Source: Klebsiella pneumoniae
Lineage (GTDB): Bacteria; Pseudomonadota; Gammaproteobacteria; Eutrophobiales; Eutrophobiaceae
Direction: 5' to 3'
Assembly (NCBI GenBank): GCA_945878555.1
Contig: CAMDWI010000002.1
Location: 124,001 to 188,000 of the forward strand
DNA: 64,000 bases
Notes under the pieces: model-generated
Database searches by the model: none
What the model saw: the letters and a program-made list of their open reading frames with translations, nothing else
What the model was told of the DNA's origin: nothing
Translations under genes and position numbers: made by a program
Shown: piece after piece, positions 49,079 to 53,749 of the stretch
How positions within the stretch are numbered: the stretch's first letter is position 1
Layout of the letters: each line of letters starts with the position of its first letter

Positions 49079-49975
49079 TCAACCTTGTCCTTTACTGGTG
49101 AGGACCTTTTTGACCGTTTCACCAAAGGATGAGGGATCTGGTACCACGGTCACTCCACAGTCTTTCAATACTTGCACCTTTTCGACCGCACTTTCACCAT
49201 GCGAGGCGATAATTGCGCCGGCATGCCCCATACGTGTTCCCCGGGGTGCAGACATGCCCACAACGCAGGCAATCAGAGGTTTGCTCATGTGTTCCCGATA
49301 AAACGTCGCCGCCTCAACTTCCTGTATGCCGCCGATTTCGCCGATCAGAATAACGGCACTCGTTTCCGTATCCTGTTCAAAATACTCCAGATGGTCCCGG
49401 AATGAACTTCCGGTAATCGCATCACCGCCTATCCCCACGCTGGTAGAGATACCAGTACCGATGGCCTCCAGCTGTGCCGCAGCCTCAAAGCCCAGCGTGC
49501 CGGAGCGCGCAATTATGCCGACCGGCCCCTGCTTGTACAGGTAACCCGGCATAATGCCGACCAGCGCCTTACCCGGGCTGATAATGCCTGCACTGCCCGG
49601 CCCGATCAGCAACATCTTGCGTGCGCCATTAAAACTGCGCAGATAACGTTTTACCCGAATCATGTCTTGTGCCGGCAATTCCCCGGTCACGCAGACACAC
49701 AGACGGATACCGGCGTCGGCGGCCTCCATAATACTGTCAGCGGCGTAGGCAGCCGGTTCGAAAATGATACTGACATCGGCCCCGGTCTGATCAACAGCGT
49801 CCCTGACCGTATCAAACACAGGACGACCCAGATGATCAGTTCCACCTTTCTCCGGCGTCACACCGCCGACCACAAGGGTTCCGTAATCAATCATACGGCT
49901 GGTATAGAACGTCCCTAACTCACCGGTCATGCCCTGTACAATGACCTTGTTCGATTTATCTATCAATATTGACAT
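49079..49975 (-). CDS. ADP-forming succinate/malate-CoA ligase, alpha subunit (MtkB/SucD-like)
   Basis: A 298-residue alpha subunit. The N-terminal CoA-binding VQGMTGELGTFYTSRMIDYG is followed by VVGGVTPEKGG, and the phosphorylated His is in RMGHAGAIIASHGES near residue 251. It resembles methylotroph MtkB at least as well as E. coli SucD. Position 122-127 reads GPGSAG, where most members read GPNCAG or GPNCPG; the Cys is lost. It follows the beta subunit by 15 bases. The enzyme couples a C4 acid and CoA to ATP hydrolysis or the reverse, in the TCA cycle or a malyl-CoA route. Confidence 0.88.
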   Translation of the reverse strand: MSILIDKSNKVIVQGMTGELGTFYTSRMIDYGTLVVGGVTPEKGGTDHLGRPVFDTVRDAVDQTGADVSIIFEPAAYAADSIMEAADAGIRLCVCVTGELPAQDMIRVKRYLRSFNGARKMLLIGPGSAGIISPGKALVGIMPGYLYKQGPVGIIARSGTLGFEAAAQLEAIGTGISTSVGIGGDAITGSSFRDHLEYFEQDTETSAVILIGEIGGIQEVEAATFYREHMSKPLIACVVGMSAPRGTRMGHAGAIIASHGESAVEKVQVLKDCGVTVVPDPSSFGETVKKVLTSKGQG

Positions 49976-49990
49976 GGGTTTACCCGGATT

Positions 49991-51163
49991 TCAGACGGTG
50001 GCCTGCTTCACGGCAGCAACGGACTTTTCGGCCACCTCGCGCAATGAATCAGCCAGGATGATGGGTACGCCGGATTCCGCTATCAGGCGTTTACCTGTTT
50101 TGGCATTCGTACCGGCCAGACGGGCAATAATGGGTACAGTGTCCCCATGCTTGCGTACAGCCTTGATCAAGCCCTCCGCTACCCAGTCACAACGATTTAT
50201 TCCGGCGAAGATATTTACCAGGATCACGTCGACGTGTTTGTCCTGTAATAGCAGGTTGACGGCCTTGTTGACGCGTTCAGCGGTAGCACCAAGGCCAATG
50301 TCCAGAAAGTTGGCCGGTTTGCCGCCGAGCAGATTTATCATATCCAGTGTCGCCATCGCCAGCCCGGCACCGTTGATTATGCAACCGATATTGCCCTCAA
50401 GCCCGACATAGTTCAGCCCGCGTTCAGAGGCCTTGCGAGCCAGCGGGTCGATACTGTACTTGTCCTTCATATTGGCGATCCGCGGACGACGAAACAGGGC
50501 GTTGTCATCAAAACTCATCTTTGCATCCAGCGCGACCAGCATACCCTCTGCGGTAAATGCGAGTGGATTAATCTCTATCATGGTGGCATCCAGATCACGG
50601 AAGGCACGATAACACCCCAGTATCGTGGATACCGCCTGGGTCAGCATTGACTTGTCGATGCCCATTTTGAATGCAATCTGGCGTGCCTGAAATGCCTGCA
50701 TGCCTACAGCCGGTTCGACGGCTATGCGGATTATCGATTCGGGATGACTAATGGCAGTCTCTTCAATGTCACAACCGCCTGCGCTGGAGGCGACGACCAC
50801 TACTCGTTCAATTTGTCGGTCCAGGGCAAAGGCAAGGTAATACTCACTCCTGACCTCAACCGCCTCTTCCACATACAAACGGTGGACCAGCTGACCCACA
50901 GATCCGGTCTGGTTTGTCACCAGACGTTTGCCCATCAACTCATTCGCAGCAGCGCGGATATCAGTTTCACTGGTGCATATCCTGATACCACCTGCCTTGT
51001 CACGACCACCGGAATGTATCTGTGCCTTGACCAGAAATTTGCTGCCGCCTATCTCACTGGCACGAAACACGGCCTGTTCCGGGCTGTAGGCCAAACCACC
51101 CTTCGGGACATTAACACTGAATTCCGAGAGGATTTCCTTGGCCTGGTATTCATGAATATCCAT
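49991..51163 (-). CDS. ADP-forming succinate/malate-CoA ligase, beta subunit (MtkA/SucC-like)
   Basis: A 390-residue ATP-grasp beta subunit. It begins MDIHEYQAKEIL, with VKAQIHSGGRDKAGG near residue 45. The hinge segment reads NIFAGINRCDWVAEG near residue 315, as in malate-CoA ligase MtkA, whereas E. coli SucC has NIFGGIVRCDLIADG. KMSFDDNALFRR is also MtkA-like. This suggests either a malate-active enzyme or the MtkA-type succinyl-CoA synthetase used by some non-enteric bacteria; no malyl-CoA lyase is in view. It forms an operon with the alpha subunit. Confidence 0.88.
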   Translation of the reverse strand: MDIHEYQAKEILSEFSVNVPKGGLAYSPEQAVFRASEIGGSKFLVKAQIHSGGRDKAGGIRICTSETDIRAAANELMGKRLVTNQTGSVGQLVHRLYVEEAVEVRSEYYLAFALDRQIERVVVVASSAGGCDIEETAISHPESIIRIAVEPAVGMQAFQARQIAFKMGIDKSMLTQAVSTILGCYRAFRDLDATMIEINPLAFTAEGMLVALDAKMSFDDNALFRRPRIANMKDKYSIDPLARKASERGLNYVGLEGNIGCIINGAGLAMATLDMINLLGGKPANFLDIGLGATAERVNKAVNLLLQDKHVDVILVNIFAGINRCDWVAEGLIKAVRKHGDTVPIIARLAGTNAKTGKRLIAESGVPIILADSLREVAEKSVAAVKQATV

Positions 51164-51269: not shown

Positions 51270-52466
51270 TTATTTTCTGGCTGCCGTCAGCGCGATATCC
51301 AGATCGCGCAACAGGTCATCTATCGCCTCATGGCCTACGGACAGACGGATCAGGCTGTCGGTAATCCCGACCGCTGCCCGCTCTTCCGGTGTAACACGAT
51401 GATGTGTCGTTGTCGCCGGATGGGTAACAGTGCTCTTCACATCACCCAGATTCGCGGTAATGGAAAAGATACTGGTCGCGTCTATGAACTTCCAGGCCAT
51501 TTCGCGGCCGCCGTCAATATCAAAACTGACCATACCGCCAGCACCACTTTGCTGACGCAGTGCCAATTCATACTGGGGATGTGACGGCAACCCCGGATAA
51601 TGGACCTTTTTGACCCCCTTCCGGGTCGACAGCCATTCGGCCACCTTCTGCGCGTTCTGGCAATGCGCCTGCATGCGGATATTCAGCGTCTCCAGACCCT
51701 TAAGGAACACCCAGGCGTTGAATGCGCTCATGGTCGGTCCGGCAGTACGCAGGAACATCAGGATGTCTTCCTCCATCTGTTTGGCCGGGCCCACAATCGC
51801 CCCACCAATACAACGACCCTGTCCATCCAGATATTTCGTCGCTGAATGGATCACATAATCTGCGCCAAGCCGCAGTGGCTGTTGCAGTGCCGGTGTACAG
51901 AAACAATTATCCACCACCAGCAGGCAATTGTTCTCATGCGCCAGTGTGGCCAGTCGACGGATATCGGCAATTTCCGTCATCGGGTTTGATGGCGTCTCCA
52001 GAAACAGGATTTTTGTCTCCGGGCGTATGGCCGCGGCCCAGGCATCATAATCAGACAAGGGGACATATGTGGTCGAGATATTGAACTTGCCCAGGATCTT
52101 GCTGAACAGCGCAACCGTCGTACCAAAGATATTTTTTGCCGACACAATATGATCACCGGACTTCAGCAGGGCCATACAGGTGGTCAATATCGCACTCATA
52201 CCGGAGGACGTGGCAATACAACGATCACCACCTTCCATTGCTGCCAGGCGCTCCTCGAACGTCCGCACCGTCGGGTTGGTAAACCGCGAATAGATATTGC
52301 CCGGCTCCTCACCGGAGAACCGGGCGGCCGCCTCGGCTGCATTATCAAAGACAAAACTGGACGTCAGGAAAATGGGTTCGCTGTTCTCATTTTCCTGTGT
52401 ACGTGACTGGCCGACCCGGATTGAACGCGTCTGTATGTCATATTTCGACGGATCAAATTTACTCAT
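51270..52466 (-). CDS. metZ: O-succinylhomoserine sulfhydrylase MetZ
   Basis: A 398-residue Cys/Met-metabolism PLP enzyme that makes homocysteine from O-succinylhomoserine and sulfide. Start at the ATG at 52466 (MSKFDPSKYDIQTRSIRVGQ) with GGAG upstream. The N-terminal EPIFLTSSFVFDNAAEA, IYSRFTNPTVRTFEERLAAMEGG and the PLP Lys in HSATKYLDGQGRCIGG near residue 205 are typical; TANLGDVKSTVTHPATTTH closes the active site. A SAM-II-like riboswitch and terminator lie directly upstream, giving control by S-adenosylmethionine. Confidence 0.9.
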   Translation of the reverse strand: MSKFDPSKYDIQTRSIRVGQSRTQENENSEPIFLTSSFVFDNAAEAAARFSGEEPGNIYSRFTNPTVRTFEERLAAMEGGDRCIATSSGMSAILTTCMALLKSGDHIVSAKNIFGTTVALFSKILGKFNISTTYVPLSDYDAWAAAIRPETKILFLETPSNPMTEIADIRRLATLAHENNCLLVVDNCFCTPALQQPLRLGADYVIHSATKYLDGQGRCIGGAIVGPAKQMEEDILMFLRTAGPTMSAFNAWVFLKGLETLNIRMQAHCQNAQKVAEWLSTRKGVKKVHYPGLPSHPQYELALRQQSGAGGMVSFDIDGGREMAWKFIDATSIFSITANLGDVKSTVTHPATTTHHRVTPEERAAVGITDSLIRLSVGHEAIDDLLRDLDIALTAARK

Positions 52467-52488
52467 AATTTTACTGTTCTCCAGAAAC

Positions 52489-52523
52489 AAAAAAACCCGC
52501 ATAAGCTGTCGCTAAAGCAGGCT
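52489..52523 (-). terminator. Attenuator terminator of the metZ leader
   Basis: On the minus strand a hairpin pairs AGCCTGC (52523-52517) with GCGGGTT (52500-52494), allowing G-U pairs, and inside it TTTAGC with GCTTAT around a GACA loop, with two U-U mismatches. The T-tract runs to 52489. Its 5' arm shares CTTTAGC with an alternative 8-bp helix that uses CGCTAAAG (52537-52530), the conserved core of the aptamer. Confidence 0.6.
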
Positions 52524-52579
52524 GGTTCTCTTTAGCGGTATTTTTTAAGCGCCCGCAAGCTGATGTCAAATCGGCGCTG
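52524..52579 (-). promoter_or_regulatory. SAM-II (SAM-alpha)-like riboswitch aptamer upstream of metZ
   Basis: Reading the minus strand, a 6-bp stem P1 (AGCGCC 52578-52573 with GGCGCT 52553-52548) encloses a 19-base loop with GATTTG and GCTTGC. After P1 comes TTAAA and then GCTAAAG (52536-52530), the conserved 3' element. GATTTG, GCTTGC, TTAAA and GCTAAAG in that order and spacing match the SAM-II class as recalled, which binds S-adenosylmethionine and usually controls metX, metZ or metA. The transcript would start at P1 itself. The class is best known from alphaproteobacteria. Confidence 0.75.
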
Positions 52580-52585
52580 GCGTTT

Positions 52586-52614
52586 ACAGTAGATAAACAG
52601 GGTCAGACTGTCAA
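52586..52614 (-). promoter_or_regulatory. metZ promoter
   Basis: On the minus strand TTGACA (52614-52609), a perfect -35, lies 17 bases from TACTGT (52591-52586), a weaker -10. Transcription would start at about 52579, exactly one base before stem P1 of the riboswitch, which supports both calls. Confidence 0.65.
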
Positions 52615-52741
52615 CCGTTTTCAGCTTGATTTCGTGCACAAGCAGGGGCATGCTTCAGGGAATTATTCCGTGCAAATTTTACCGGAAGACTGACGACAAC
52701 CTCCTGCACTGAATCACTCAACCTGAAGGAACCCGAGATAA

Positions 52742-53749
52742 ATGAAAACCGGAAATACCGCTGCTATCACAGCCGCCTTGATTACCCTGCTGGCAAATAC
52801 CACCCTGGCCCAGGATTTTGCCGCAGAGGGTTCAACCGCCACACTGACGGTTGAATACAGTTATGAATCTTCAGGTAGCCACAGCAGTGAAGGGATGTAC
52901 GACCCTTATGACTGGGAAGTCAAACGCAACGTAAATATCGTTGCGAACCTCTCGGCTCAACAGCCCACAGCCTTGCCCAGCCTGCAGGCGATGGATGCCT
53001 CACAGATGGCTGAACTTGAGGACAAGACCAGACAGGCTGAGGCCCTGGCAGCCGACATGCAACCGATGGTGGCAAATGCCGAAAGTATCATGGCGAAGTG
53101 TGGAGAGGATGAGGCCTGTCTGATGCGCGAAGCGATGGCCATGGGTGCTGCGATGCAGGGTACTGCCGAGATGGAAACGGCCATGCAGGCGGGTGAGCAG
53201 TTTCACCAACTGGCCGACCAGGGAACACCACGCTACCAGCGTTGGCAAGCAACACTGCAAAAAGGGACTTATCTGATTGATGAAAAGGTCCATATCTCGG
53301 TAACCGATCCTATCTGCATGGAACTGCCGACCTCTCGCTGTACCCGGGATGAAGTACGTCAGGGCTCGGGAGACCTGCCACTCCCACCGGAGATGGGAGA
53401 TAACCCGGATGCAATAGCCGGTTACTCGGCGGTAGAACTGGACACGGACAAAAACACCCTTAGCGTGATGTTGCCAATACCGCTGGCACTGCTGCCATAT
53501 ATCGAAACCATTACCACAGACGAACCGGAAGGCACGCACGAGACCCCGACACCGATAGGCCCGCAACCACAACTACTTTCATTCCAGGTCAGCCCGGGTA
53601 GCTCCACCCAGGAGACCGCCATCACGCTGGACGTCAAAGGTGACTGGCGCAAGCAGTCCGGTCAGCAGGTCCTTGCCATGGGTGGTCATCTGGGTGAGTC
53701 AGGTAATCTGACCATAAGCTGGAAATTCGAGGTTACCGGGGGGCAATAG
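52742..53749 (+). CDS. Exported protein of unknown function, Met/Ala-rich helical centre
   Basis: A 335-residue protein not recognised. A signal peptide (TAAITAALITLLANTTLAQ) indicates export. A beta-rich N-terminal part (ATLTVEYSYESSG) leads to a helical stretch at residues about 80-160 that is rich in Ala and Met (MDASQMAELEDKTRQAEALA and EAMAMGAAMQGTAEMETAMQ). The Cys pairs (AKCGEDEACL and DPICMELPTSRC) suggest disulfides. The C-terminal half has several beta strands. It has its own ribosome-binding site (AAGGAA) and is divergent from metZ. A four-base gap to the next gene suggests co-transcription, but that partner is DNA-repair related and gives no clue. Confidence 0.6.
   Translation: MKTGNTAAITAALITLLANTTLAQDFAAEGSTATLTVEYSYESSGSHSSEGMYDPYDWEVKRNVNIVANLSAQQPTALPSLQAMDASQMAELEDKTRQAEALAADMQPMVANAESIMAKCGEDEACLMREAMAMGAAMQGTAEMETAMQAGEQFHQLADQGTPRYQRWQATLQKGTYLIDEKVHISVTDPICMELPTSRCTRDEVRQGSGDLPLPPEMGDNPDAIAGYSAVELDTDKNTLSVMLPIPLALLPYIETITTDEPEGTHETPTPIGPQPQLLSFQVSPGSSTQETAITLDVKGDWRKQSGQQVLAMGGHLGESGNLTISWKFEVTGGQ

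Follow-up and report, generated by a model that had tools for sequence, protein, structure and literature searches.

The leader that precedes metZ on the minus strand raises the question of which class of regulatory RNA it encodes, and at which step of expression that RNA would act. An earlier note had taken it for a SAM-II-like riboswitch controlling metZ through a transcription terminator, and had called both the host and the mechanism less usual. The window, as used here, is the whole 64-kb stretch of DNA that was analysed. On the basis of covariance-model matches, predicted folds and conservation among relatives, we consider it very probable (about 0.93) that positions 52587-52489 form a SAM-II riboswitch that switches metZ off at the level of transcription.

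Architecture of the leader and its predicted aptamer

The leader opens with a sigma-70-type promoter, TTGACA-N17-TACTGT (52586-52614, minus strand, as are all features of the window described below), in which the -35 element TTGACA (52614-52609) is separated by a 17-nt spacer from the -10 element TACTGT (52591-52586). Placed from this promoter, the start of transcription is predicted at ~52579-52578, the foot of the first stem of the aptamer (P1). The promoter position is kept in relatives, where the best-scoring site in 28 of 31 matches combines a TTGACA or TTGACT -35 with a TA...T-type -10 at a spacing of 17 nt. The promoter scan itself returned only a TTGACA within the aptamer, at 52569. 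We dismissed it as a chance occurrence: at that place the family consensus reads GATTTGA and then varies, and it is the TTGACA-N17 site further upstream that is conserved.

The Rfam model RF00521 (SAM_alpha, which is SAM-II) matches 52587-52511 with 45.7 bits against a gathering threshold of 36 (E = 4.5e-7 for the 64-kb window), and this is the sole Rfam match above gathering within the window. The match is full length, covering model positions 1-79 with every core residue present and two model positions deleted. Such a score lies far above chance for a predicted SAM-II aptamer, and bears out the SAM-II-like call of the earlier note. Judging from family membership, the RNA of 52587-52511 would bind SAM.

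The P1 stem, AGCGCC/GGCGCU (52578-52573 with 52553-52548), encloses GATTTG (52572-52567) and GCTTGC (52560-52555). Its five inner positions form standard pairs in 100% of 31 distinct sequences from related and class-level loci, and two-sided changes (C-G to U-A, C-G to G-C) occur at three of the five. TTAAA (52548-52544), which lies inside TTAAAAAA, and GCTAAAG (52536-52530) follow, so that the promoter with its start at P1 and every one of the four motifs listed by the earlier note can be located on the minus strand. GATTTG, GCTTGC and GCTAAAG are invariant across 24 aligned sequences, the window included. If the pairing follows that of known SAM-II RNAs, a P2 pseudoknot would span 52527-52563, with an inner pairing (P2b) of UUGC with GC(U)AA (52558-52555 with 52536-52532) and a putative outer helix, P2a, of ~2 bp (UC/GA, 52563-52562 with 52528-52527). 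The inner P2b residues are invariant, hence without covariation.

Alternative pairings ahead of metZ

Fold and conservation point to two further structures. The putative antiterminator pairs 52537-52530 with 52517-52510 (-10.8 kcal/mol, z = -3.3), an 8-bp complementarity that is exact, as the earlier note had it, between CGCTAAAG and CTTTAGCG. The predicted intrinsic terminator hairpin occupies 52523-52494 (-13.8 kcal/mol, z = -2.7) and is followed by a U7 (T7 in the DNA) tract at 52495-52489. It lies ahead of the GGAG ribosome-binding site of metZ (52482-52479), where it had been reported, and the metZ ATG (52466) begins 23 nt past the U-tract. Strand 52517-52511 is used by both antiterminator and terminator, which makes the two mutually exclusive. 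Folded as a whole, the leader is no better than its shuffles (z = -0.26), a result that a pseudoknot-containing switch should give; the sub-domains fold better. A simple terminator scan of the window returned nothing at the leader, probably due to a 3x3 internal loop that interrupts the stem.

In the proposed mechanism, transcription would begin at the foot of P1. When SAM is scarce, CGCUAAAG, the 3′ portion of the core, would pair with the downstream CUUUAGCG, blocking the rising arm of the terminator and letting the polymerase continue into metZ. Once SAM is bound, the P1/P2 pseudoknot would hold the core and leave CUUUAGCG to the terminator, whose formation would stop transcription in the U-tract, ahead of the ribosome-binding site of metZ. 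SAM-dependent termination ahead of metZ is what membership in the SAM-II family would predict.

By itself, the 8-bp complementarity is only moderately improbable: when the 50 nt downstream were shuffled, 8 nt of complementarity was reached in 79 of 5000 dinucleotide shuffles, and conservation is therefore the stronger argument for the antiterminator. Its seven-pair core, GCUAAAG/CUUUAGC, is paired in 24/24 aligned relatives and never broken, in an alignment drawn from loci with an intact element and leaving out most of L015, L021, L030, L003, L007 and L012. Two members of this alignment carry a U-A to U-G change in the core that keeps the pairing, while the eighth pair (C-G in the window) is mostly absent from relatives. 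In the terminator, 99.6% of the alignment cells are paired, and both elements are too invariant for two-sided covariation to appear. The exclusive pairings of aptamer, antiterminator and terminator that the earlier note had set out as alternatives are thus kept among relatives. The terminator is not universal, since it is absent from three metZ-linked relatives (L015, L021, L030) and three others, also metZ-linked (L003, L007, L012), have no five-T run after it.

The three metZ-linked leaders without a terminator would fit a switch that is chiefly translational, with the terminator incidental. Some SAM-II riboswitches do act on the ribosome-binding site, as at Sinorhizobium meliloti metA (PMC9373788), and in one relative (L046) the second of two tandem SAM-II elements directly overlaps its Shine-Dalgarno. 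In the window, however, the Shine-Dalgarno (52482-52479) lies beyond the U-tract, ~45 nt from where the aptamer core ends, and none of the predicted folds pairs it with the aptamer; terminator and antiterminator are together retained in all 24 aligned relatives. We therefore regard translational control as very unlikely to be the principal mode.

Still less credible is that the aptamer belongs to another SAM class, SAM-V, or is a SAM-II-like variant that recognises a different ligand, SAH for example. Its short P2a would suit such an identity, a missing final 3′ pairing element being a SAM-V feature (PMC2704228). In a permissive covariance-model scan of 52300-52800, however, SAM-V (RF01826) gave zero matches even at E ≤ 10 and was rejected, whereas RF00521 covered positions 1-79 with all core residues and, in the window-wide scan, scored above gathering; the comparison of the two models that the earlier note had proposed as a check thus came out for SAM-II. 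The SAM-II long-loop model RF01726, which reached only 15.7 bits in the same scan, was likewise rejected. The SAM-II family consensus has a longer outer P2 than the ~2 bp predicted here, where two model positions are deleted, and as regards affinity the short P2a is a point against the main reading. It seems unlikely that SAM-II RNAs of the host lineage work with a reduced outer pseudoknot helix (~2 bp), part-way to SAM-V, for which the terminator compensates kinetically.

We give next to no credence to a constitutive attenuator whose main product is a short trans-acting RNA: S. meliloti SAM-II sRNAs do accumulate, with trans action proposed (PMC9373788), and the same-genus second copy is kept in one species without the gene that follows it elsewhere, but the metZ copy adjoins metZ in nearly all relatives with its antiterminator intact.

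The metZ unit in relatives and in known systems

The gene under the predicted control of this SAM-II switch (51270-52466) encodes an O-succinylhomoserine sulfhydrylase of 398 aa. Its identification as metZ in the earlier note is confirmed by the MetZ profiles NF006003 (673.8 bits, cut-off 522) and TIGR01325 (571.9 bits, cut-off 510.05). The nearest named MetZ, from a metagenome-assembled Gammaproteobacteria genome (CANKCB010000008.1), is 85% identical. The MetZ of CAMBTO010000014.1 is 96% identical; that contig is labelled Klebsiella pneumoniae, a label that is probably wrong. The host is an unclassified gammaproteobacterium.

A succinate/malate--CoA ligase pair (49079-51163) begins ~107 nt past metZ on the same strand. 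Succinate is the product released by MetZ, and a metZ-ligase link through succinate is conceivable, but conservation does not back it. G001 and G002 have a homologue of the first ligase gene near metZ, and the G003 and G004 loci do not; a succinate-recycling operon of metZ and the ligase pair was rejected, the pair being absent near metZ in these last two close relatives.

Among genomes of the host's order, RF00521 matches (E ≤ 0.001) were found in 45 of 53, and in 31 of the 33 of good quality; 14 control genomes gave 0 matches. Of the SAM-II matches examined (the 31 fetched first), 28 have metZ directly downstream. The other three are L002, which is the second copy in the host genome, L014, a tandem copy in G005, and L025, truncated by the end of its contig. 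The unit of SAM-II, terminator and metZ is thus a regular trait across an entire gammaproteobacterial order rather than the result of sporadic transfer, and the window adds to it a well-supported predicted SAM-II member.

That the host is unusual is not borne out. Alpha-, beta- and gammaproteobacteria are named as the groups in which SAM-II is commonest (PMC2704228, 2009), its presence in gammaproteobacteria was recorded in a 2007 survey (PMC2258182), and Coxiella and Bordetella sequences are among those listed in the paper defining the class (PMC1273637, 2005). In our sample, 118 of 369 genomes of the host's class match RF00521, 31 of the 369 above gathering. A regulon survey of ~200 proteobacteria found SAM_alpha in Rhizobiales and Rhodobacterales only (PMC4239095), and the extent of SAM-II in the host's class and order is therefore under-documented, though not new in kind. 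Nor does the mechanism stand apart. In alpha- and betaproteobacteria, SAM-II is singled out as the class linked most frequently to terminators, which are its commonest platform (PMC2258182), and terminators between P2 and the gene were already noted in 2005 (PMC1273637).

The closest parallel is S. meliloti metZ, where a SAM-II aptamer and a predicted SAM-dependent intrinsic terminator precede the same gene, as in the window, and where a terminated sRNA of ~100 nt is higher in high-SAM medium (PMC9373788, 2022). The difference lies in the host, alphaproteobacterial there and gammaproteobacterial here. The Agrobacterium tumefaciens metA element (PMC1273637, RF00521) shares P1, the pseudoknot P2 and the conserved core, along with a promoter a few nucleotides before P1 and a terminator before the gene, but regulates metA, whereas the element of the window precedes metZ. 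Tandem SAM-II/SAM-V bi-mechanism riboswitches (PMC9481103, PMC2704228) likewise start with a SAM-II element with a terminator; their second aptamer is missing from the window and occurs only in relatives (L045, L046). The SAM-II/terminator/metZ arrangement is thus already known, and common in the host's group.

Other SAM-II elements in the host genome and relatives

A divergent second SAM-II-like copy (26.6 bits) is present in the same genome (L041, G000:C23:19266-19342, minus strand). This copy and its counterparts L042 (G003) and L044 (G004) have their own promoter and terminator, with the terminator loop CTAGTATATTACGAGG identical in the three species, and the CUUUAGC antiterminator is absent from them. 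A PspE-like rhodanese gene follows the second element in G000 and G003; G004 has kept the element, with no rhodanese ORF found downstream of it. The copy before the rhodanese gene is mildly curious, and the divergent element may act as an sRNA.

Two relatives carry tandem leaders on the minus strand, and mixed tandem SAM-II leaders are already known (PMC9481103). At L046 (G005:C22), the first SAM-II has a terminator and the second directly overlaps the Shine-Dalgarno of a small protein with no NCBIfam match. At L045 (G024:C21), a SAM-II with terminator precedes a SAM-V aptamer (38.7 bits, slightly below the gathering threshold of 41) that covers the beginning of a short ORF, again with no NCBIfam match.

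SAM-II elements also stand ahead of other genes. At L057 (TIGR01034, 621.4 bits), L069 and L075 the gene is metK, which encodes SAM synthetase. These three leaders lack the CUUUAGC antiterminator, and a SAH riboswitch also occurs at L069. L043 (G036:C11) and L077 (G407) have a SAM-II of the same terminator design before a sulfite/nitrite-reductase-like gene, and the regulon may therefore extend towards sulfur assimilation. Five RF00521 matches occur in a single genome, G281, where at locus L058 a second aptamer-like start (GCCGATTTGA...CAGCTTGC) comes immediately past the first terminator.
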